A DNA stretch of 64,000 bases from Hyperoplus lanceolatus (lineage: Eukaryota; Chordata; Actinopteri; Uranoscopiformes; Ammodytidae). Where the stretch lies: contig CM049414.1 in NCBI GenBank assembly GCA_026929865.2, positions 1,800,001-1,864,000 of the forward strand, in the 5' to 3' direction. The position numbers and the translations under genes are program-made. Below, piece by piece: positions 10,513-64,000 of the stretch (the stretch's first letter is position 1; every line of letters starts with the position of its first letter). The notes under the pieces were generated by a model, which worked only from the letters and a program-made list of their open reading frames with translations, did not search any database and was not told the DNA's origin.

Positions 10513-11020
10513 CCAAGCCCCAACCACAGCGAGTTCTACCAGCATCAAATGCGGACTTGTTCACCCAGTGGCCACTAAGGGCAGGTACCGAAACAGAGCA
10601 ATTTCTCATTGACTCCCATGTTGAATAGGCTTTTCCCACAGCATTATTAAACCTATTTAAGGCCTAGTCCAAAAAACATTCTAGTCTGTATGTTTAGGTC
10701 ATATCTCCATAACAACACTGAGGGGGTTGAATTGTTTTGAACCAGTCCAGTTTTTATTCAATTGGAGGTTTAAATGTATGAATAATTAGGGGCGCGACCT
10801 CATGACTGACAGCGTGCCGCTGGCCCTAACTTGGCCTCGGAGGTATACTTCAGCTAGATGGGCGTATCTCCCTCCCCCAACTTCACATCAATGCCCTATT
10901 TTGGTAAGAGGAAATTTGGCGGAGTCAAACTCTGACAAGATGGCCTGGATGATTGGATGCAGTTGGAATAACTAGGTTCAGCCCGGATGCTATATCCATT
11001 TTATATGCTATCTATGGTAG
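10513..11020. repeat. Dispersed repeat, copy 1 (second copy 51963-52350)
   Basis: Both copies run in the same orientation from CAAGCCCCAACC through TCTAGTCTGTATGT, TCATATCTCCAT and GGCGTATCTCCCTCCCC-type blocks to CTATCTATGGTA. Copy 1 is about 120 bp longer. I see no TIR, tRNA-like promoter or coding frame, so the class is unknown. Confidence 0.65.
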
Positions 11021-11270
11021 CCACATACCTGCTGTGTACAAACCCATTATTATATCTGGAGCGTAATGATGTATCTCATTAATATTGATTCAGGGACCAG
11101 TTAATTGATACAAAAAGATCTCTCTTAAATACAGAGTTTACAGTATGTTGACCCAAAATCCACATGCCTAGACGGTTAGACCTAAACTCAGGGTTTCCCC
11201 CAGTTTATTCTCACCATGCCTGTATTGCCCCCACGCCATGCCATGCATTGTTAATGTATTATTATTATTA

Positions 11271-13787
11271 GGGGGCCAAGCCCGAGAAGGGCCTGGGACC
11301 GCGTTTTGCAGAGCAACACGGTTCCATAGCCCTGCTGGGCAGGGAACCCTATTGTTTTTGCTGGGATTATTATTATTTCGCTTATTATTTGGTGTCGTGT
11401 AAAACTGGTGCTGCAGCCCAAACCGTAAAGGCTTGGGACATGCCACTTGCATGACTAGATCCAGGTCCGTGCCTGGTACGCAGACGAAAAAATTCAGACA
11501 TGCCGGCCACTGGGTGGCGCTACAACAAAGGAAAACGCGTTTGGGGCTATAACTCCCGCACCGAAAGTCCGACAGTCAAAAACTTCATATCCACACATGC
11601 ACACAAGTCAGATGCATCTTTTGAGATAGGCCACGCCCATTTGCGTATATATAGATTTTTTGCTACATCGCAAAAACTGTGTCAGTCACCAAAACACACA
11701 CCTCCTAGAGTTTTTGCCCGATTTGGACGAAACCAAAAGCATTATGCTCTACCGACTCCCACGACCAAAAGTTGTATAAAGAATTTTTCTCCAACCATCG
11801 GAAGACCAAACGGTAGCGCTTTAAAGATTTGCACATTAGCTACCTTGTACCAAACTGCCTCTAAATCCAAAACGATTCATCCTATTAACACCAAACTTCA
11901 CACGTGTTTGTCCTATGGTTCTCAGGTTGGTTCTACTTTTTCCTTAAATTGCTCCAAAAGGGGGCGCCAAAAACACACTTGAGCATCTTTCTCTGCGATT
12001 TTGTTGCCTTTTGGTCTATAACTCCGAAACCAAACATCCCACATTCAAAAACTTTATATCCCCGGATTCCGTGAAGCGAGGGGCCAGCGCCGCGGACGAC
12101 GACGCGCCATCCCGAGTCGCGTGGGAGGCTTGGCCCCCGGTCACAACTGCTTGCAGTTCTTGAGATAGGCCACGCCCATTTGCGTATATATACATTTTTC
12201 GCTACATCGCAAAAACTGTCAGTCACCAAAACATACTCCTCCTACAGTTTTCGCCCGATTTGGACGAAACCAAAAGCATTATGCTCTACCGACTCCCACG
12301 ACCAAAAGTTGTATAAAGAATTTTTCTCCGACCATCGGAAGACCAAACGGTAGCGCTTTAAAGATTTGCACATTAGCTACCTTGTACCAAACTGCCTCTA
12401 AATCCAAAACGATTCATCCTATTAACACCAAACTTCACACGTGTTTGTCCTATGGTTCTCAGGTTGGTTCTACTTTTTCCTTAAATTGCTCCAAAAGGGG
12501 GCGCCAAAAACACACTTGAGCATCTTTCTCTGCGATTTTGTTGCCTTTTGGTCTATAACTCCCAAACCAAACATCCCACATTCAAAAACTTTATATCCCC
12601 GGATTCCGTGAAGCGAGGGGCCGGCGCCGCGGACGACGACGCGCCATCCCGAGTCGCGTGGGAGGCTTGGCCCCCGGTCACAACTGCTTGCAGTTCTTGA
12701 GATAGGCCACGCCCATTTGCGTATATATACATTTTTCGCTACATCGCAAAAACTGTCAGTCACCAAAACATACTCCTCCTACAGTTTTCGCCCGATTTGG
12801 ACGAAACCAAAAGTATTATGCTCTCCTGACTCCCACGAGCAAAAGTTGGTCAAATAATTTTTCTACGACCATCAGAAGACCAAACGGTAGCGCTTTAAAG
12901 ATTTGCACATTAGCTACCTTGTACCAAACTGCTCCTAAATCCAAAACGATTCATCCTATTAACACCAAACTTCACACATGTGTTTGTCCTATGGTTCTCA
13001 GGTTGGTTCTACTTTTTCCCTAAATTTCCTTAAACAAAAGGGGGCGCCAAAAACACACTTGAGCATCTTTCTCTGCAATTTTTTTGCCTTTTGGTCTATA
13101 ACTCCCAAACCAAACATCCCACATTCAAAAACTTTACATCCCCGGATTCCGTGAAGCGAGGGGCCGGCGCCACGGACGACGACGCCCCATCCCGAGTTGC
13201 GTGGGAGGCTTGGTCCCCGGTCACAACTGCTTGCAGTTCTTGAGATAGGCCACGCCCATTGCGTATATATACATTTTTCGCTACATCGCAAAAACTGTGT
13301 CAGTCACCAAAACATACTCCTCCTACAGTTTTCGCCCGATTTGGACGAAACCAAAAGCATTATGCTCTACTGACTCCCACGAGCAAAGGTTGGTCAAATA
13401 ATTTTTCTACGACCATCAGAAGACCAAACGGTAGCGCTTTAAAGATTTGCACATTAGCTACCTTGTACCAAACTGCTCCTAAATCCAAAACGATTCATCC
13501 TATTAACACCAAACTTCACACATGTGTTTTGTCCTATGGTTCTCAGGTTGGTTCTACTTTTTCCTTAAATTTCCTTAAACAAAAGGGGGCGCCAAAAACA
13601 CACTTGAGCATCTTTCTCTGCAACTTGTTTGCCTTTTGGTCTATAACTCCCAAACCGAACATCCCACATTCAAAAACTTTACATCCCCGGATTCCGTGAA
13701 GCGAGCGGCCGGCGCCGCGGACGACAACGCCCGATCCCGAGTCGCGTGGGAGGCTTGGCCCCCGTTCACAACTGCTTGCAGTTCTAG
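11271..13787 (+). mobile_element. Helitron-like (Helentron/HINE-like) non-autonomous element with internal tandem array
   Basis: The element begins GGGGGCCAAGC after an ATT run and ends with GCTTGGCCCCC (11-bp inverted repeat), followed by a hairpin AACTGC-TT-GCAGTT (13770-13783) and CTAG before a T. A 3' hairpin directly before CTRR and insertion next to T are Helitron marks; inverted subterminal repeats and internal satellites are known in Helentron-type elements. The 5' TC of canonical Helitrons is not seen. No Rep/helicase frame is present. The class call is inference. Confidence 0.5.
11633..13786 (+). repeat. Four-unit tandem array, ~540 bp per unit
   Basis: Units start at GAGATAGGCCACGCCC: 11633-12161 (529 bp), 12162-12698 (537), 12699-13241 (543) and 13242-13786 (545). 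Each holds GTACCAAACTGC, a GC-rich core near GGCCGGCGCCGCGGAC and ends with CAACTGCTTGCAGTTCT. The open frames of ~100-160 codons found here repeat with the units and on both strands and show no protein family, so I treat them as non-coding. Confidence 0.9.
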
Positions 13788-13940
13788 TTTTCTCTTGATA
13801 TGCAATGCGGAAAGTATGATTGAGTGACAAACATGAATGCCGCAGTGCAGAACTAAAAAGATATATATATAACACACAAGAAATAGCAGATCACAAAAGT
13901 CTCTCCACTTACACTCCCATCCACTCATACATGAACACCT

Positions 13941-13963
13941 ACACACACACACACACACACACA
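13941..13963. repeat. (CA)n microsatellite
   Basis: A short dinucleotide run. Confidence 0.9.
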
Positions 13964-13969
13964 AAGACA

Positions 13970-14930
13970 CACAGCGCTAGAAATGGCCCAGACTTCCTGA
14001 GGGGGACTCGGCTTGTTACCATTACGCCGCCAGAAATGAATCATCTGCTATTGATTCCTGCACACTCTCCTCCACTGGCGTATTCATCACAGCTCTATTT
14101 TCAGAATCTTTCTCTTTTCCAACCATTTCCATAAAAGCCTTTTGATTGATCTCTCCTGCTAGACTCGAGCTGTTTTAACTCCTGTTTGGTTTCCTAGGCA
14201 GTAGCAGGATTTGTCCCCTTGATTATTTACAGGGCGAGCCGAGCCCGTGGCGCTGATTCATTCCCACCTAATTGTAACCTGTGTGCTCTGTATGGATTTT
14301 TCTAGACATGACTTCGCCCAGAGCTGCACATTAATAATATTGCAGAGACAAGTGTGCCTAAAACTTTAACCTGACCCCCTGAAATAGATGACTATTATAG
14401 CAAACAACCTTTTACTTCAGGTAAATATTGCTTTTCTGACAAAACTGCCTCCTCAGCCCCCAATTTGATAATAACAAATACATTTCAGGAAGCATTGAAC
14501 ACCACATCACGCTATTTCTACCTTGAGTTTATAAACTGTGAATATTGATTTGCCTCTTGGCGGGTCTGCTTAGAAGGTGAAGAAGCCATATTGGAAAGAG
14601 AAACACTATTTAGCAAAAGTGCTGCACTCATCAAAAGGAGAACACTTGAACTAATAAATTATGCTTGATCAAACACAGGTTGGTTATCTGCCTTTATACA
14701 GTATCTGCTACGTGTTAGGTCTAATTTACACTTGCAATAGCTGGCAATGTAGAAGTCATGTGTAGGCGGGATTCATTTTTACCCTGCATTCAAAAATGTC
14801 AGTGGTTGAATGTTCACAGCTTGTGGGTGATACTTATAACGTCAGTGCAGTACAGTGTTCAGAGAACCAAGAAGTGAAAAATAAAGGTCTATGAGACTAA
14901 ATTAACCCAGGGTATAACACTCCACACCTC

Positions 14931-34930: not shown

Positions 34931-35576
34931 TTAATATCTCATTGCATGTGTTTGCTATAAAAGTAAGCGGGATTCTGTGTTACCACAACATAGGTCTTAT
35001 TTTCATTAGGGATGCAATCTGATACTCCAAAATAATGGGATCTGAAATCCATTAACTTAAACTACACTCACCGGCCACATTATTAGGTGCACCGGTTCGA
35101 TTTCTTGTTAACACATATAACTAATCAGCCAATCACATGGCAGCAACTCAATGCATTTAGTTTTGTAGACCTGGACAGGACAACTTGTTGAAGTTCAAAC
35201 CGTGCAACAGAATGGGGGAGAGAGGGTGTTTAAATGACTCTGAACGTGGAATGGTTGGTGGCGCCAGACGGGCTGGTCTGAGTATTTCAGAAACTGCTGA
35301 TCTACTGGGATTTTCGCGCACAACCGTCTCTAGGGTTTACAAACATAAAATAAAATATCCAGTGAGCGGCAGTTGTGTGGACGAAAATGCCTTGTTGATG
35401 TCAGAGGTCAGAGGAGAATGGGCAGACATTAACTCAAATAACCACTCATTCGACCAAGGTATGCAGAATACCATCTCTGAACGCACAACACGCCCAACCT
35501 TGAAGTAGATGGGCTACAGCAGCAGAATACCCCGCCTGGTGCCACTCCTGTCAGCTAACAGAACAGGAAACTGAGG

Positions 35577-36494: not shown

Positions 36495-36977
36495 CTGAGG
36501 CTACAATTAGCACAGGCTCAACAAAATTGGACAATAGAAGATTGGAAAAATCTTGCCTGGTCTGATGAGCCTCGAATTCAGTTGCGGTAGGGTCAGAATT
36601 TGGCGTACACAACATGAAAGCATGGATCCATCCTGCATCAACGGTTCAGGCTGCTGGTGGTGTAATGGTGGGGGAACTTTCTTGGCACACTTTGGTCCCC
36701 TTAGTACCAATTGAGCATTGTTAAAACGCCACAGCCTACCTGAGTATTGTTGCTGACCATGTCCATCCCTTTATGACCACAGTGTACCCATCTTCTTATG
36801 GCTACTTCCAGCATGCACCATGTCAAAAAGCTCAAATCATCTCAAACTGGTTTCTTGAACATGACAATGAGTTCACTGTACTCCAATGGCTTGCACAGTC
36901 ACCAGATCTCAACCCAATAGAGCCCCTTTGGGATGTGGTGGAACGAGTGATTTGCATCATGGATGTGCAGCCACCAG

Positions 36978-38556
36978 GGTCCTCGTTTTTAATACTTTGC
37001 ATGGGATTCACGTGGAAAGCTGGCGCCCAGAAGAAACTCAGGAAGTGCTTGCGAACAAAAATATTCGGATTTATAAAACAGTGCTCACTCACGTCCTACG
37101 CCTGTTTCCCTTTATAGATCACAATCAATCCTAAATGTGGTGCAGCCTTTGAGGGCTCATGTAACGCCCATATTTACCCATACATAGTCATTGAAACGGC
37201 CAAAATTAATATCATTTACTGAGTGCATGAAGGCGATCGTGGCACACGCCGACGGAAAGGGAAATGGAAAAATAGTCCCCACGGTGTGGATCACTGCGGC
37301 CTCGCCGAAGTTCCTGTTGGGAAGGTTGTGAACAGGCAAAATATAGTTTGGTGACACAGTGTGTGCGTAAAGGTGTCAGAGTGCAGCGTGTGGAGATCTT
37401 TGTTAATGCTGCAGCCTCAGAATGTCGGACTGTGGTCGAAATAAAAAAGAAGCGATCCGACATAAAAGTGGACGCAAAAAAGTGCATATCCTCACACAGC
37501 AGTGTTTGTGCCACGAGCGGGGGACACTGAGACCCCCCATGTGTGGCAGCAGAGGAGGATTGTGCTCAAACATAAAGAAAACCACATAGATAAAACGGAC
37601 TAAAAGCCATGAAAAATTAGTACAGTATGTGATGTGCAGTAGGCTTATGATTAATGTATGAAACTGTGCACTCCTGTCTGCCTGACTGAGGCATCTAGCG
37701 TCAATGCAAAAGTAATATGTATTCCACCTCAATATAAAGAGAATGAATTCAATAACAATCAGATTAGTTATTTTTTAATAACGGCAGAGCTTATTCGAAC
37801 GTTGTTTTTTAAATTTGCACTCATACAGTATATCTTAGTTTGTAGGCTATTTAAGATCCTAATTAGTTTTTGTTGGGGTTATAAAACCTTGTGTGTAAGA
37901 CAAGACCCAGGCGTTAGTTCAAACAGACCAAAGAGATACAGACACAATGATACACGGAGACAAAGAGCTCATTTTACTTGCCGCAAGGAGAGTAGTAGGC
38001 AACTCCAAACCAACTCTGCCGTCCTGCTCTCCTTACACGCCTTTTATTCACATCTCAAATGGTGGTTACAAGCATTGTGTGGTCTACTAATGATTAGTGA
38101 TTCTGGGAACTTGTTTGTTTATTCCAGCTGGCGCATGTCAGCGTGTCCTAACTGCCCACGCCACTGGAAATCTGCAGAGTGTACAAAGTTCAAAACAACA
38201 TGTGGTTATCAGTTCACTTCAGAGCACATGTTTACACAATGAAAAAATCCAACTCTCAGTTTTTTTTGTTGGTAACATTCCATGGAAATTCTTTTGGAGC
38301 CATTTGTTTATTAGTTGTAAAAATGGCTTCATCCATTTTGCAAAGGAACTCCCAATATTTGATAGACCTACAGTACATGGCTTATAATAGGCCCATCTGG
38401 ATTAATTTTACACAAACACTTTCGTTCTCGCACTTCATACATGTGCCGACAGAGTCGTCATTCTTCCCATCAAGTTTGATTTTTATAAATGCCGCTGTTT
38501 GCTTAGAAAGTGGTATGCGCCTTCTCCTGCGTACGCCACATTTATAAATGAGACCC
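36978..38556. mobile_element. 1.58-kb PIF/Harbinger-like element inserted in the Tc1 transposon
   Basis: Ends GGTCCTCGTTTTTAAT and the complement of GGGTCTCATTTATAAATG, with CAG at 36975-36977 and 38557-38559, a CWG duplication typical of Harbinger. A 194-codon frame at 37658-38242 has no recognisable domain and I do not call it a gene. Confidence 0.7.
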
Positions 38557-44633: not shown

Positions 44634-45498
44634 CACTCAACAAAAATATAAACGGAACACTTTTGTTTTTGCTCCCATTTTTCATGAGATGGACTTAAAG
44701 ATCTAAAATTCATTCCAGATACACAATTGTACCATTTCTCTCAAACATTGTTCACAAATCTGTCTAAATGTGTGATAGTGAGCACTTCAGCTTTGCTGAG
44801 ATAATCCATCCCACCTCACAGGTGTGCCACATCAAGATGCTGATCTGACATCATGATTAGTGCACAGGTGTGCCTTAGACTGTCCACAATAAAAGGCCAC
44901 CCTGAAATGTGCAGTTTTGTCTCACAGCAAAATGCCACAGATGCCACAAGCATTGAGGGAGCGTGCAATTGGCATGCTGACAGCAGGAATGTCAACCAGA
45001 TCTGTTGCTCGTGCATTGAATGTTCATTTCTCCACCATAAGCCGTCTCCAGCAACTTCGCACAGCCATTGAAGAGGAGTGGACCAACATTCCACAGGCCA
45101 CAATTGACAATCTGATAAACTCTATGCGAAGAAGATGTGTTGCACTGCATGAGGCAAATGGTGGTCACACCAGATACTGACTGGTTCTGAGTCCCCAGAC
45201 CCCCAATAAAGCAAAAAAATGCACATTTCAGAGTGGCCTTTTATTGTGGATAGTCTAAGGCACACCAGTGCACTAATCATGATGTCAGATCAGCATCTTG
45301 ATGTGGCACACCTGTGAGGTGGGATGGATTATCTCAGCAAAGCAGAAGTGCTCACTATCACACATTTAGACAGATTTGTGAACAATGTTTGAGAGAAATG
45401 GTACAATTGTGTATCTGGAATGAATTTTAGATCTTTAAGTCCATCTCATGAAAAATGGGAGCAAAAACAAAAGTGTTGCGTTTATATTTTTGTTGAGT
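44634..45498 (+). mobile_element. Tc1-like deletion derivative with ~280-bp TIRs
   Basis: CACTCAACAAAAATATAAAC at 44634 follows TA; the right end is its near-perfect complement ending ...GTTGAGT before AT. The inverted repeats run to about 44916 and from about 45214. Between them is a short transposase-derived frame. The arms are strikingly similar, which implies recent activity or gene conversion. Confidence 0.85.
44932..45180 (+). CDS. 82-residue Tc1 transposase derivative: DNA-binding N-terminus fused to C-terminus
   Basis: The frame starts ATG at 44932 (MPQMPQALRERAIGMLTAGM) and carries the first helix-turn-helix (STRSVARALNVHFSTISRLQ). It then passes without frameshift into the C-terminal end (QLRTAIEEEWTNIPQATIDN ... 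GGHTRY) and TGA. A full transposase of this type is about 340 residues, so the second DNA-binding part and the whole catalytic DDE core are gone. The junction lies near 45046-45056 (CTCCAGCAACTTCG), where both parent sequences probably share CCAGC, suggesting microhomology deletion. It cannot catalyse transposition; whether it is expressed is unknown. It could bind its own TIRs. Confidence 0.6.
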   Translation: MPQMPQALRERAIGMLTAGMSTRSVARALNVHFSTISRLQQLRTAIEEEWTNIPQATIDNLINSMRRRCVALHEANGGHTRY

Positions 45499-49812: not shown

Positions 49813-51018
49813 AAAATCATTGAAAAAGCTGTTTATCAACAGCTAAATAACTACTTAGCAATGAACAACTGCTTTGATGTTTTCCAGTCAGGATTTCGAC
49901 AACACCACAGCACTGAGACTGCTCTCAGACTGGAGACTGGATCTCAGTGCCGCTTTTGACACAGTTGACCACAGCATATTACTAGATCAACTAGCAAACT
50001 GGGTTGGACTGTACTAAACTGGTTTGAATCCTACTTAAAGGACAGAGACTACTATGTGTCAATAGGCAATTTCACATCTGAGCGGACACATATTGAATGC
50101 GGGGTCCCCCAAGGTTCCATTCTTGGGCCTCTTCTGTTTAACATCTACATGCTCCCACTAGCTCAGATTATGAATAAAAACAAATTATGCTACCATAATT
50201 ATGCAGACGACACACAAATTTACATAACCATATCACCAGGAGACTACAGTCCGATACAAGCACTGAGTAAGTGCATTGAACAAATCAATGATTGGATGTG
50301 CCAAAATTTCCTTCAATTAAACAACGAAAAAACTGAAGTAATTGTCTTTGGTGCCAAAGATGAACAATTAAAAGTCAGCGCACAGCTTAGATCTGTTATA
50401 CTAGAAACCACACACCAAGCCAGACATCTTGGTGTTGTCATAGACTCCGACTTGAATTTCAAGAAACACATAAAATCAATTAATAAGTCAGCATACTACC
50501 ACCTTAAAAACATATCAAGAATTAAAGGACTTATGTCTCAGCAAGATTTAGAAAAACTTCATGCATTTATCTTTAGTAGACTTGACTACTGTAACAGTGT
50601 TCTTGCAGGCCTTCCAAAAAAATCTATCAGACAGCTTCAGCTAATTCAGAACGCTGCTGTTCGAGTCCTCACTAGGACCAAAAAAGTGGATCACATTACC
50701 CCAGTTCTGAGGTCTTTACACTGGCTTCCTGTCACTCAAAGAATTGATTTAAAAATACTGATGTTGGTTTATAAAGCACTAAATGGTTTAGCGCCAAAAT
50801 ACATTACTGATCTGCTGATACGTTATGAACCGTCCAGAGCCCTTAGGTCGTCTGGGACAAGTTTACTTACAGTCCCAAGAGTTAGGACTAAACGAGGAGA
50901 AGCAGCTTTTAGTTTTTATGCACCAAATATCTGGAACAAACTCCCAGAAAACTTGAGGTCTGCTGCAACCCTCAGTTCTTTTAAATCGAGTCTGAAGACT
51001 TTTCTGTTTCCATTTTAA
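49813..51018 (+). pseudogene. LINE reverse transcriptase, 5'-truncated and frameshifted
   Basis: The long open part runs from 50011 or before to TAA after 51015 (320 residues from 50056). It shows GVPQGSILGPLLF (residues 16-28 of that frame) and the YADD catalytic motif at residues 49-52, then the L2/CR1-type C-terminus (LDYCNSVLAGLP, LHWLPVTQRIDLKILMLVYK, WNKLPENLRSA). Upstream, KIIEKAVYQQLNNYL (49813 on) and DLSAAFDTVDHSILLDQL (49940 on) are in other frames, with a deletion between them and a frame change before 50011. The endonuclease domain is missing. It cannot retrotranspose by itself. Confidence 0.85.
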
Positions 51019-58840: not shown

Positions 58841-58926
58841 CTATGACTGGCTTGACAGCAGCCATGACAACAGTCCAAGGCAGGATGCAGTGACAAGACT
58901 GATCGTGTGGCATACTCCACCTGAAG
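58841..58926 (-). CDS. Last exon: GPI-anchor signal and stop codon
   Basis: Acceptor CTCATTTACAG. The 86 bp encode SSGGVCHTISLVTASCLGLL then SWLLSSQS and TAG. Small residues (SSGG) followed by a hydrophobic stretch that runs nearly to the C-terminus, with no basic cytoplasmic tail, is the layout of a GPI-attachment signal rather than a transmembrane anchor with an intracellular domain. Confidence 0.75.
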
Positions 58927-61900
58927 CTGTAAATGAGGAGAAAAGGAAACAAATCATTAGTTCAACAAATTGCAATTTTGAGAGTGCAACTTTTGAGATG
59001 TTGATCAAGTAGCACTCCATAATGCTTACATATGCCATTGACAAGAATGGAGCTGCCTTCAATGTCGAATCCAATGACATTTGAAGATGCACTGATCAAA
59101 ACATTTGTAATCTGAGTGTTATTAGGAACATATGTGCTTTCAAAGCCAGCGTTCATTTCAGTGATAATCGATCCGCTTCTGCATTAGGAGAAACAAAAAA
59201 TATTAGAAATATCAGATCTAGGCAAACATTCTAAAATTGTTATACGATGTTATAAGTCTTAAAATATTACCTGAAGGCCACCACTTTCAAGGACTTGAAT
59301 GAAATGAATTCCGATTGGAACAAAGGTCCCAGCTGCAGAAAGAGAACATTTAATGTTTTTTACTTTTTAAATTATATATATTTTTCATGTGAAACTGAGC
59401 TGCTTGTATATGAAATACGTTGTGTAGTGATACAGTTGTGAGGGTTTGTGCAGCATTTGTCTTGATATATTCAACATGATGTCTCTGTCATCAATCTTCG
59501 ACAGGAAGACAGGAGGACAATAATTGATTTGTACCAATACTGTGTTTAAACAAAGCAATAGATGAGCTGTTTAACATTAATTTGTTTAAGTGTAGCTCAC
59601 TGCGTTTGAATTACTACATTGTTTAATATAAAATGTATATGCAAGTTTGAAATGCCCTAATGTCCATTTTCCTTAGTGCCTTTTACTTGTGCTGATCCTA
59701 GCAGTAGCACATACAGTATAGACTTACAATTCTATTGTCTAGATTTTTTTAAATAATTTAAGTAATTTATAACTACAAGGTACATCATTGGAAAACAAAA
59801 TATATGGGAAAATGGTCATAACAACGCTGATATGCTGCAGAACCTACCAAGTTATTATTTAGTACAGTTATAACATCTCACCAAAACATGTGTGGGGTAA
59901 AGTAATGTAACAGTTTAATTTCCTAGTACTGTAAAATAGATAATACATGCGGCGAAATTTATTTCACATTGCCTCAAAACTGTCAAAAAAGTGACTCCTA
60001 AAATGTAACCTTGTTTTCTTTCTCTGTACCTTCATTTATGCAGCATTACAAACTTGTATCTTAGTGCTGCTTAATTCATACTAAACAATGCTACTGAAAA
60101 TTCCCAGCAGATTTGCTTTTAAGGGAGAGACTTACCTGACTTTCTATCATTGAGGCTCGGTTTTTAAAAGCTATAGATGATGAATTCAGCAAGTCACTTC
60201 TAAATGTGGCCAGAAGAGATCTGAAAGACACCCTTTGTGTTAAGATTGTTACAGCTGTAGGGACATCAGTTCCAGGAGCTCCAATTGTAGGTGCAGCAGT
60301 CAAAGGAGCAACAATTTCAGGTGCAGCAGTCATAAGTGCAGCAGTCGTAAGTGCAACAGTCGTAGGTGGATCAGGTACTGGACCTGTTGGAAAAACAGTT
60401 TGTTAAAGAATTGAATTATGATCTGTCAAGTATTTGTGCCCACATCAAAAGGATTTATTATTTTTAATGTCACTAAAAAAAATCTTTAAAGATGTCTTGA
60501 TGAATCTTGACTATAATTATATTTATTGTATAGCAGAATTGTTTTGCACAATTTGAGTAGTACATTTTTCTTTACAAATCTTTAATGAACTAGAGTGCAA
60601 AATCGTGCTGTAATTACTCACCTTCTACTTTTATTTGATCGACAACTATGTCCACACTGAAGGAATTGTTGGTATTATTAACAGCATCAACTAAGGTTTG
60701 ACCAACAACACTATTCCGTGGGAGATTGTCAGTGGGAGTAGTCTGATTAAACAGAACACCCACATCTACCTCAGTTATATTCTCTCCTGTTTTTAGACTT
60801 TGAGCACTCCTGTTTCAGGAAAGCAAATTGAAAAAGTGTTAGTTAAAGATAAATAAAGGATTCTGTTGATGTGTGTCAAAAGTTCTTGACATGACTCGAT
60901 AAACATTAAAACATATTGATATATTTAGGGCCTTTAAAAATGCAAATTAAGCAAAATAAGGAAACCACTGTTTTAAAAAAATGTTTTACCTGAACATTCC
61001 CACAAAGCTCCTGTCATACAGGAGACCAAATGCTCTTCCATATATCATATTGAACTAGAAAAGAAAGCAACATTTAAATACCTTGAGCACAAATGAACAG
61101 ACTAGCTAAATCATTTTCGCCTCATTAGATTTGTTGTTCAGCTAATGCACTCCATCCAGTCATGATTTACAACACTGAAACAGTAAATTAAATATTTGAT
61201 CAGTTTGAAAAACTCACAATTGCTATAATTTGTCGTACAAGATCATTGTGTCTTGCACTATTTGGGTCATTGAGGTCATCTGAATAGGGTACTTGCAATA
61301 AAACTGTAACAGTGTAAAGAGGGGCTGCGGTAGTTGTTGTTGGAGCAGAGGTTATCGCTGTTGTGGGTTCAGGATTCATAGTTGTGGGGGTAGAAGTTCT
61401 TGTAGAGGCAGCGGTTGTTTTTATCCAGGCAGCAGTTGTTGAAGGGGCAGCGGTTGTTGTTGTGGGTAAATAAGTTGTAGTTGTAGCTGAAGTTGTTATT
61501 TTAGGGGCTGTGGTTTTTATAGTTGGTGCAGCGGTTGTAGTTTGGGCAGCATGTGTTGTAGTTGGATCTGCAGTTGTTGTTGTGGAGGCAGTAGTTGTTT
61601 TAGTTGGGCCAGCGGTTGTTGTAGGGGCAGCAGCTGTTGTAGTAAGAGCTGCAGTTGTTGTGTGTGCAGCAGTTGATGTGGAGTTAGCACTTGTCATTGT
61701 AGAGACAGTGGTTGTTGATATGGGGGCAGCAGCTGTTGTTGTAAGGGCGGAATTTGTTGTCAGGGTTGCCATTGTTGTTATGGGGACATTAGCTGATGCT
61801 GCAGTTGATGTTGTGGGGGGAGTTGTTGTAGTTAGAGCTGCAGCTGTTGTTGTTGTGGGGGCAGTGGTTGTTGTAGTTGTTGCAGCAGTTGTTGTAGTTG

Positions 61901-64000
61901 GTACAGCAGTTGTTAAAGTTGGAGTAGCGGTAGTTGGGGGGGCAGACCTTGTTGTATTTGAGTCTGCAGTTGTTATTGGGGCAGCAGTTGTTGTTGTTGT
62001 TGGGGCAGTAGCTGTTGTAGTTGGGGCTCCTGTTGTTGTTGGGGCAGCAGTTGATGTAGTGGGGGCAGCAGTTGTTGCAGTTGGGGCAGCAATTGTTGTA
62101 GTTGAGTCTGCAGTTGTAGTGGGGGCAGCAATTGTTGCTGTTGGGGCAGTAGCTGTTGTAGTTGGGGAAGCAATTTTTGTAGTTGGAGCTACAGTTATTG
62201 TGGTGGGGGCAGTGGTTGTTGTAGTTGTGGCAGCATTAGTTGTAGATGGATCAGCAGTTGTTGTAGGGGCAGAAGTTGTTGAAGTTGGGGCAGCAGTTGT
62301 TATAGTTGGGGCAGCAGTTGTAGTTGGGGCTGCAGTTGTCGTAGTTGGGGCAGCGTTTGTTGTAGTCGGGATAGCAGCAGTTGTAATTGGAGCTGCAGTC
62401 GTTGTGGGGGCAGCAGTTGTTGTAGTTGGTGCAGCGGTTGTTGTAGTTGGGACAGCAGTTGTTGTAGTTGGGGCAGCAGTTGTTATAGGGGCCGTAGTTG
62501 TAGTTGGGGCTGCAGATGAAGTAGTTGGGGCAGCGGTTGTAGTTGGAGCAGCAGTTGTTGTAGTTGGAGCAGCGGTAGTTGTGGGGGCAGCAGTTGTAGT
62601 TGGAGCAGCAGTTGTAATAGTTGGAGCAGCGGTAGTTGGGGGGGCAGACGTTGTAGTTGTTGAGTTTGCAGCTGTTATTGGGGCAGCAGTTGTAGTTGGG
62701 GCTGCAGTAGTTGTAGATGGAGCAGTGGTTGTCGTTGTAGGGGCATCAGTTGTTCTAGTTGGGGCTGCAGTAGTTGTAGTTGAAGCTGTTGTTGTTGTTC
62801 GGGCCGTGGTTGTTGTAGTGGTGGCAGCAGTTGTTGCTTTCGGGGCAGTAGTTGTTGTACTTGTAGCTGCAGGTGTTGTGGGGGCAGCAGTTGTTGTAGT
62901 TGAAGCTGCAGTTGTTGTTTTTGGGGCCGTGCGTGTTGTAGTTGGGGCTGCAGTTGATGTTGTGGGGGCAGTTGTTGTAGTTAGAGCTGCAGCGATTGTT
63001 GTGGAGGCAGTGGTTGTTGTAGTTGTTGCAGCAGTTCTTGTAGTAGAAGCTGCAGTTGTTTTAGTTGGGGCTGGAGTTGTAGTTTGGGCAACGGTTGTTG
63101 TGGTGGCAGCAGTTGTTGTAGTTTGGGTAGCAGCTGTTAATGTCGGGCCAGTAGTTGTTGTAATTGTCCCAGCAGTTGTTGTTGGTGTAGCAGTTGTTGT
63201 AGTTGAAACTGCAGATGTTGCAGTGTGGGCAGCAGTTGTTGTAGTCGGAGCTGCAGTAGTTGTAGTTGGAGCTGCAATAGTTGGAGTTGGAGCTGCAGTT
63301 TTTGTTGTGGAGGCAGCAGTTGTTGTAGTTGGGGCAGCAGTTGTTGATGTGGGTGCAGTAGTGATTGTAGTCGGGGTAGCAGTTGTTGTAGCAGGAGCTG
63401 CAGTTGTTATAGTTGGAGATGCAGTTGTTGTGGGGGCAGCAGTTGTTGAAGTTGTTGTAGCAGTTGTTGTGGGGGCTGCGGTTGTTGAAGTTGGAACTGC
63501 AGTTGTTGTGGGGGCTGCGGTTGTTGTAGTTGGTGTAGAGGTTGCTGTAGATGGGGCAGCAGTTGTTGTTGTGGGAGCAGTAGTTGTTGTAGTTGGGGCT
63601 GCAGATGTTGTAGATGGAGCAGTGGTTGTCGTTGTAGGGGCATCAGTTGTTGTAGTTGGGGCTGCAGTAGTTGTAGTTGAAGCTGTTGTTGTTGTTCGGG
63701 CCGTGGTTGTTGTAGTGGTGGCAGCAGGTGTTGCTGTTGGGGCAGTAGTTGTTGTTGTTGGGCCCGTGCTTGTTGTAGTTGGGGCTACAGTTGATGTTGT
63801 GGGGGCAGTTGTTGTAGATAAAACTGTAGCTGTTGTAGTTTGGGAAGCAATTTTTGTAGTTGGAGCTACAGTTATTGTGGTGGGGGCAGTGGTTGTTGTA
63901 ATTGTGGCAGCAGTAGTTGTAGATGGAGCAGCAGTTGTTGCAGGGGCAGAAGTTGTTGAAGTTGGGGCATCAGTTGTTATAGTTGGGGCAGCAGTTGTAG
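58841..64000 (-). CDS. Mucin-like protein with two SEA-like modules and a GPI-anchor signal (3' part of gene, 7 exons)
   Basis: Reading the minus strand, exons are 64000(open)-61218, 61054-60990, 60809-60622, 60383-60136, 59332-59271, 59178-59030 and 58926-58841, ending in TAG. All six introns are GT-AG (163, 180, 238, 803, 92 and 103 bp) and the frame stays open through every junction. About 1,190 residues are visible. Order: at least 890 residues of Thr/Ala/Pro repeats (TTTAAP style), a SEA-like module starting YTVTVLLQVPY, a short Thr/Ala/Pro linker, a second SEA-like module containing FRSGSIITEM, and a tail (GVCHTISLVTASCLGLLSWL) after a small-residue SSGG site that fits GPI anchoring. 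Several N-glycosylation sequons (NIT, NQT, NNT, NSS) are present. Such proteins are heavily O-glycosylated cell-surface mucins; the family assignment follows from architecture, and I cannot name an orthologue. The start codon lies beyond the window. Confidence 0.82.
59030..59178 (-). CDS. Exon: SEA module 2, C-terminal part with GSII motif (149 bp)
   Basis: Acceptor CCTAATGCAG, donor GTAAGC. It completes Arg and reads SGSIITEMNAGFESTYVPNN, then QITNVLISASSNVIGFDIEG and SSILVNG. G-S-I-I-T sits where SEA domains that self-cleave carry G-S-V-V-V. It enters in phase 2 and leaves in phase 1. Confidence 0.78.
59271..59332 (-). CDS. Exon: SEA module 2, short central exon (62 bp)
   Basis: Acceptor CTTTCTGCAG, donor GTAATA. 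It reads LGPLFQSEFISFKSLKVVAF then the first two bases of Arg. Phase 0 in, phase 2 out, the same as the 65-bp exon of module 1. Confidence 0.78.
60136..60383 (-). CDS. Exon: short Thr/Ala/Pro linker and start of SEA module 2 (248 bp)
   Basis: Acceptor CCAACAG, donor GTAAGT. The first ~45 codons (PVPDPPTTVALTTAALMTAA and on) are a short, degenerate version of the long mucin repeat. The rest (QRVSFRSLLATFRSDLLNS and on to ASMIESQ) is the N-terminal part of SEA module 2. It enters in phase 1 and leaves in phase 0, as the mucin exon does before module 1. Confidence 0.78.
60622..60809 (-). CDS. Exon: SEA module 1, C-terminal part (188 bp)
   Basis: Acceptor AAACAG, donor GTGAGT. It reads SAQSLKTGENITEVDVGVLF and continues through NQTTPTDNLP and SFSVDIVVDQIKVE, with the alternating hydrophobic pattern of a SEA beta-sheet. 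It enters in phase 2 and leaves in phase 1. There is no Gly-Ser cleavage motif at the position where the second module has GSII. Confidence 0.78.
60990..61054 (-). CDS. Exon: SEA module 1, short central exon (65 bp)
   Basis: Acceptor TTTTCTAG and donor GTAAAA flank 65 bp reading FNMIYGRAFGLLYDRSF then VGMFR. It enters in phase 0 and leaves in phase 2. Its size, phases and ending (FR split as AG|G) match the 62-bp exon of the second SEA module. Confidence 0.78.
61218..64000 (-). CDS. Exon: Thr/Ala/Pro mucin repeats plus start of SEA module 1 (open at window edge)
   Basis: I read the frame line by line from 61218 to 64000 and found no stop, so at least 927 codons are open. Almost every codon is Thr, Ala or Pro, with occasional Ser, Val and Ile, which is the composition of an O-glycosylated mucin domain. 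The last ~34 codons change to ordinary sequence (YTVTVLLQVPYSDDLNDP) and begin SEA module 1. The donor is GTGAGT at 61217-61212, phase 0. Other frames of the same array give long Gln/Leu/Pro open frames that are shadows. In-frame internal duplications are visible at spacings of 702, 897 and 1677 bp. Confidence 0.8.

Follow-up and report, generated by a model that had tools for sequence, protein, structure and literature searches.

Do identical intron phases in two SEA modules of one mucin gene mean that one module was copied from the other? The question is raised by a locus at C20:1800001-1864000 of the Hyperoplus lanceolatus assembly (806.7 Mb); this whole stretch of 64,000 nucleotides is referred to below as the window. 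On its minus strand, seven exons were read as joining into one open frame, with GT/AG borders at all six introns between them and with intron phases of 0, 2, 1 and then again 0, 2, 1 (Table 1). Both central exons end in TTC AG, encoding Phe and an Arg split after AG. The exon borders, the phases, the 65- and 62-bp central exons and the split Phe-Arg pair listed in a first-pass annotation of the window are all present in this frame, as is the degenerate Thr/Ala/Pro (T/A/P) linker that it described before module 2, in which tandem-repeat rows lie at 60274-60368. T makes up about half of the residues of the T/A/P tract in the window. The gene crosses the window end at 64000, where the exon 61218-64000 is still open. 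Coordinates past this point continue the numbering of the window (window-extended 66983-98174 is C20:1866983-1898174), and a frame scan in these coordinates follows one clean frame from 61250 to 65270.

Table 1. Features of the SEA mucin gene in the window (positions are those of the window)
Feature	Position	Strand	Remarks
T/A/P mucin tract, C-terminal part	61326..64000	-	open frame; extends about 38 kb past the window
SEA module 1 (M1), first exon part	61218..61325	-	ends in phase 0, after QIIAI; Pfam SEA
SEA module 1, central exon, 65 bp	60990..61054	-	phase 0 to 2; ends F-R, split after AG
SEA module 1, third exon, 188 bp	60622..60809	-	ends in phase 1; without G-S-[IV] motif
Short T/A/P linker and first part of SEA module 2 (M2), 248 bp	60136..60383	-	phase 1 in, phase 0 out; Pfam SEA
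SEA module 2, central exon, 62 bp	59271..59332	-	phase 0 to 2; ends F-R, split after AG
SEA module 2, third exon, 149 bp	59030..59178	-	ends in phase 1
Gly-Ser, candidate autoproteolysis site	59169..59174	-	context FRS-G/S-IITE; aligns with the FRNG-SIV site of ADGRF1
Last coding exon, 86 bp, ends TAG	58841..58926	-	small residues, then hydrophobic tail ISLVTASCLGLLSWLL, SSQS and stop; resembles a GPI signal

The other contents of the window were surveyed by a Pfam scan of 10 of the longest open frames. A reverse transcriptase piece lies at 49969-51015 (PF00078, E 2.2e-17), and helix-turn-helix and DDE fragments of Tc1-type transposons, with weak Pfam scores, lie at 35161-35505, 36725-37114 and 44893-45177. 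A direct repeat of several copies, spaced at about 537 bp, was observed at 11000-14200 (585 shared 14-mers at that offset).

Are both modules SEA domains? Against Pfam SEA (PF01390), for which the curated cut-off is 26.4 bits, module 1 alone scored 30.8 bits (E 3.4e-7), module 2 alone 29.9 bits (E 6.6e-7) and the two together 53.7 bits (E 2.6e-14). Each module thus lies separately over the cut-off, and what had been annotated as SEA-like is SEA by this score; the same result ruled out a mucin with one true SEA and a second match by chance. In searches of the PDB with single sequences, module 2 was found to match the SEA domain of ADGRF1 (E 0.0022), and module 1 retrieved no SEA chain but an unrelated capsid match (E 1.4). 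The M2 family profile matched the ADGRF1 SEA at E 9.8e-9 and chain 8hc0_B, whose last residue is the G of FRNG in ADGRF1, at E 1.7e-7; its match to 1ivz was weak (0.017). Weak matches were also obtained with an M1 profile built from relatives, namely to 1ivz (0.0025) and to TMPRSS11-type SEA (0.0052 and 0.0066). Compared with each other by BLASTP as single sequences, the two modules are weakly similar (28%, E 0.18), and as profiles they are homologous (hhalign probability 96.4, E 1.1e-9). Module 1 and module 2 are judged to be genuine SEA domains, each of a separate old type that recurs across a family of such genes.

The encoded order is a candidate signal peptide, a very long T/A/P tract, M1, a short linker, M2 and the GPI-like tail. 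A long PTS-type tract N-terminal of SEA is thus present, in the form of T/A/P sequence in the window and, with interruptions, over about 41 kb upstream of it. The gene probably encodes a large SEA-type surface mucin that combines two old SEA paralogues with a GPI-like tail, a cleavable M2 and an uncut M1 spacer. The loop of M2 reads F-R-S-G-S-I-I at the place where SEA domains self-cut. Autoproteolysis at the SEA motif G-S(V/I)VV, and at GSIVA in ADGRF1/F5, is described in passages of two earlier reports (PMC6954182, PMC10687090), the first of which, in its part on the ADGRF1/F5 motifs, also has the cut halves staying joined until force acts (PMC6954182). For membrane mucins, another passage likewise describes SEA autoproteolysis with halves that hold until force is applied (PMC9578598). 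In the working proposed here, the mucin would be GPI-anchored on the epithelial surface, and M2, nearest the membrane, would fold and cut itself at G-S. The cut halves would hold together until force separates them, at which point the whole mucin would be shed, and M1, which lacks the G-S site, would stand above as an uncut folded spacer. Such a glycan brush with a cleavable base joint is suggested by the M2 motif, the ADGRF1 match and the GPI-like tail taken together.

How would the protein be held at the membrane? By eye and by hydropathy, its end consists of small residues (the run ISSGG), a hydrophobic stretch whose 19-residue mean hydropathy is at most 1.60, and then SSQS and the stop. 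This end looks like a GPI signal and is a candidate anchor, in line with the first-pass reading of a mucin with GPI, since the gene is mucin-like and the hydrophobic GPI-like end is present. Related tail exons were found at 9 other places in the genome, 65-89% identical to that of the window. A transmembrane segment with a cytoplasmic tail was not found in the window gene, in which only SSQS and the stop follow the hydrophobic end. The same protein might instead span the membrane by an ordinary helix that leaves next to no residues in the cytoplasm, or be released, but this is unlikely: although the hydrophobic stretch is, at its hydropathy, long enough for a short helix, the protein stops 4 residues past it without basic stop-transfer residues, the small-residue run stands directly before it, and the tail exon is similar at those 9 places. 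GPI anchoring therefore remains the preferred reading.

Constraint on the two modules was estimated by simple substitution counting on short sequences, which gave dN/dS values of 0.48-0.60 for the window M2 against four relatives and of 0.82 and 1.13 for the window M1 against two relatives. M2 is read as constrained. For M1, constraint may be weak or absent on this measure, because the window M1 evolves fast.

How far does the gene extend past the window? T/A/P-rich sequence continues, with interruptions, for about 41 kb upstream, to an acceptor at window-extended 102277, and a candidate signal-peptide exon of 43 bp at 102472-102514, identified by eye, reads MGVRSILSCFLILTG and ends in phase 1. 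At the two ends of the T/A/P region, the outer 4.1 kb and 4.0 kb are each in one frame. Ad hoc frame tracing over the 41 kb gave 269 segments (268 switches), mostly within 98174-66983, with 29 stops on the path; this count is rough because some of the switches lie in non-T/A/P sequence. The segment at window-extended 66983-98174 holds about 31 kb of T/A/P-coding sequence, in which all three repeat frames are nearly without stops. A search for more units upstream of 64000, which the first-pass annotation had proposed, yielded two further M2-like units with the family profile, one near 78.6-77.5 kb (E 1.7e-7 and 1e-5 for two exons) and one near 94.0-92.9 kb (E 4.4e-5 and 0.045), both in window-extended coordinates. 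A single unbroken 41-kb mucin exon, considered as a candidate, was dropped once these two SEA-like units had appeared there. Both units carry RSGSV at the cleavage position, match each other in 90% of the 51 columns that they share, and are frameshifted at different places in the assembly. No tail exon was matched in this region upstream of the window at E up to 0.05, which would fit a single gene with four SEA modules. An intact full-length gene stays putative because the assembly does not keep an open frame through its middle 31 kb. The favored source of these breaks is repetitive long-read sequence that was poorly polished, as in a gap fill. Somewhat less probable than the transmembrane version discussed above is a gene in decay from which no full mucin is made, with genuine frame breaks both in the 31-kb middle and in the upstream SEA units. 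The 268 switches, the frameshifts in both upstream units and the dN/dS near 1 of the window M1 would fit such decay, whereas no break affects the seven window exons or the outer 4.1 kb and 4.0 kb of the tract, the breaks crowd in one stretch, as in poorly polished gap fill, and the dN/dS of M2 is about 0.5. Defects of the assembly thus remain the favored explanation.

What are the relatives of the two modules in the same genome? In a whole-genome search with Pfam SEA, a single locus exceeded the cut-off, and it was a non-mucin gene on C4; the low yield is explained by exons splitting the SEA domain. Protein searches of the genome with each module returned 38 and 61 matches among those listed, and 30 complete modules, 16 of M1 and 14 of M2 type, were extracted at 13 places, the window included. 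The central exon measures 65 bp in all 16 M1 and 62 bp in all 14 M2, the introns have phase 0 and then 2 in all 30 modules, and the modules end at a phase-1 donor in 27 cases and read on into the next T/A/P tract in three. The extraction script required splice borders in phases 0/2/1; when this requirement was lifted, 32 of 33 central-exon matches (E up to 0.01) were found to have the borders, the exception being at C20:3389908, and a phase-1 GT lay within reach of 30 of 33 third-exon matches by a lenient test, the three without one being the C10 and C23:15544801 copies. In the M2-type arrays at C10:13087801-13092500 and C23:15544801-15548700, the third SEA exon has no donor and continues into the next T/A/P tract. 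The motif G-S-[IV] is present in all 14 M2 and in none of the 16 M1, one of which (C23:13304052, copy 4) has G-S-L near the cleavage position. M1 precedes M2 at all six places at which both were fully extracted (the window, C2:34622707, C23:13191726, C23:13221641, C23:13304052 and C23:21652983). M2 stands alone at three places, one of them with three copies, and M1 alone at two (C23:21680051 and C23:21672901), in stretches of 3 to 8 kb that may miss neighbors. The closest relative of the window M2 is at C23:21781273 (85%), and that of the window M1 is at C23:13221641 (52% over the module). In this set, the central exon of 65 versus 62 bp is taken as the mark of two old types.

Two further places were noted in the course of these searches. 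An M2 first exon at C20:3391408-3391530 shares 76% identity with its window counterpart. No second or third exon for it turned up within the 5 kb read, and upstream of it there is a possible M1 central exon that lacks the usual donor. At C23:21673198-21705000, of which small parts were read, many SEA-like matches at a spacing of about 766 bp have the look of a longer array of distant M1-type units.

Tandem copying is evident in paralogues. C23:13191726 carries three M1 units at a spacing of 1,632 bp, of which the first two are identical over 1,600 bp without gaps; C23:13304052 likewise carries three M1 units, at a spacing of about 1,078 bp, and here the identity of the first two covers 600 bp without gaps. 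For the third copies at these two places, the ungapped comparison was out of register and gave 65% and 80%. Judged by these repeats, what is copied in this gene family is a phase 1-1 unit of T/A/P tract plus SEA. Such copying keeps the frame because each unit starts and ends in phase 1. Units could be gained or lost in this way without damage to the frame, by which related genes would reach two to five SEA modules.

Does the same hold for the two modules of the window? In a tree of the 30 modules, the 16 M1 and the 14 M2 were placed on opposite sides of one branch with a support of 100/100; the root was not inferred, and that each type forms one group is meant in this sense of opposite sides. 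Window M1 and M2 as sisters were rejected (delta lnL 94.5, p-AU 5.6e-8), and so they were in a tree to which the open parts of the two upstream units were added (delta lnL 96.6, p-AU 5.5e-52). These units group with M2 (100/100), and support for the other 14 M2 as a set of their own then drops to 64/72. The tree program flagged the window M1 and two other M1 as long branches and raised a warning of long branches meeting in the 30-module tree. The trees do not use the incomplete modules at C23:21672901 (two), the truncated second copy from the C10 stretch, matches to part of exon 3 where C23:21680051 begins, the lone M2 first exon at C20:3389908 or the listed genome matches outside the extracted places. 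The window modules were not each other's nearest relatives in these tests, as a recent tandem duplicate within the gene would be. The M1 and M2 types probably split before the genes of this mucin family multiplied.

The phases themselves were compared with a non-mucin control, one gene on C4, tentatively named matriptase (ST14) from its likeness to the human sequence. This matriptase-like SEA gene has a phase-0 donor after KQVTDQ, then a 71-bp central exon ending in Phe plus AG, and SEGSVVV after the next acceptor, that is, the same 0/2 introns; read by eye, an apparent phase-1 donor follows DVMSS. The SEA domain of MUC1 has the same intron split as that found here. The 0/2/1 pattern is most likely an old trait of SEA genes at large, inherited from an ancestral SEA gene, because the non-mucin matriptase-like gene has the same introns, and phases so inherited would be no sign of recent copying between module 1 and module 2. 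The first-pass annotation had taken the identical phases to show that the whole unit was duplicated in this gene, and the same introns occur not only in the control but at 10 other places in the genome, in modules of M1 and M2 type. An origin of module 1 and module 2 from a mucin-SEA unit duplicated within the gene, with a later change in tract length, is rejected by the tree tests and very improbable overall, since the shared phases, the similar central exons and the tandem copying of phase 1-1 units in paralogues are outweighed by the rejection of the sister pair in both trees, by a pairwise BLASTP match (E 0.18, 28%) far below that to relatives elsewhere (M1 up to 52%, M2 85%), and by the same introns in a non-mucin SEA gene. 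With the sister pair rejected, the proposed shrinkage of the second tract or growth of the first after copying is left unsupported, and the idea of an exon-shuffled mucin-SEA unit holds for the phase 1-1 unit copied in paralogues and fails for the window pair. The control gene thus corrects the tempting inference that the same intron phases mean a duplicated unit.

What could the two old types mean? In this multi-copy mucin family, cleavable and non-cleavable SEA appear as two separate, persistent types in a fixed order, and since M1 and M2 occur within one protein, comparing them would be a way to test what SEA cleavage does in mucin shedding. A broader view, offered tentatively, is that of a fish family of giant GPI-anchored mucins in which a cleavable SEA sits by the membrane and non-cleavable SEA modules were multiplied outward. 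If so, M2 self-cleavage and cutting of the GPI anchor would provide two independent shedding routes for a coat of MUC16 size, and the number of units would differ from gene to gene and perhaps from one individual to another.

How does this mucin compare with known systems? In the literature searched, a set with most subscription papers outside it, no GPI-anchored, multi-SEA fish mucin is described. I-Muc and Muc13 of gilthead sea bream, compared here by description only, are fish membrane mucins with SEA, and they differ in being described with one SEA beside a transmembrane domain (PMC3680472). MUC1 and MUC3/12/17 share a mucin tract and a membrane-adjoining SEA with a G-S-V/I type site (PMC9578598), whereas theirs is one SEA module in a transmembrane protein with a cytoplasmic tail; the MUC1 SEA is a weak match for the M1 profile (E 0.13-0.19) and is not among the matches listed for M2 up to E 1. 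The SEA of ADGRF1 (GPR110) is the best PDB match of M2, the FRxGSI site included, but it belongs to a receptor of the adhesion GPCR family without a mucin tract. Matriptase (ST14) shares the 0/2 introns, a central exon ending in Phe plus AG, SEGSVVV and an apparent phase-1 end, but is a serine protease with a central exon of 71 bp. MUC16 (CA125) is alike in its very long region of O-glycosylation type, its several SEA modules with T/S/P linkers and its tandem copying of SEA units, each MUC16 repeat being encoded by five exons (PMC3431878); the murine MUC16 SEA 1ivz is a weak profile match to M1 and M2. Unlike MUC16, the window gene has two SEA types, T/A/P instead of S/T-rich tracts, and a GPI-like end in place of a transmembrane segment with a cytoplasmic tail, and the similarity is weak. 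It is not filed as a MUC16 or MUC1 orthologue because the transmembrane segment and tail that define those are absent. Overall, as far as its sequence tells, the predicted mucin resembles MUC16 most in plan and works like the SEA membrane mucins.
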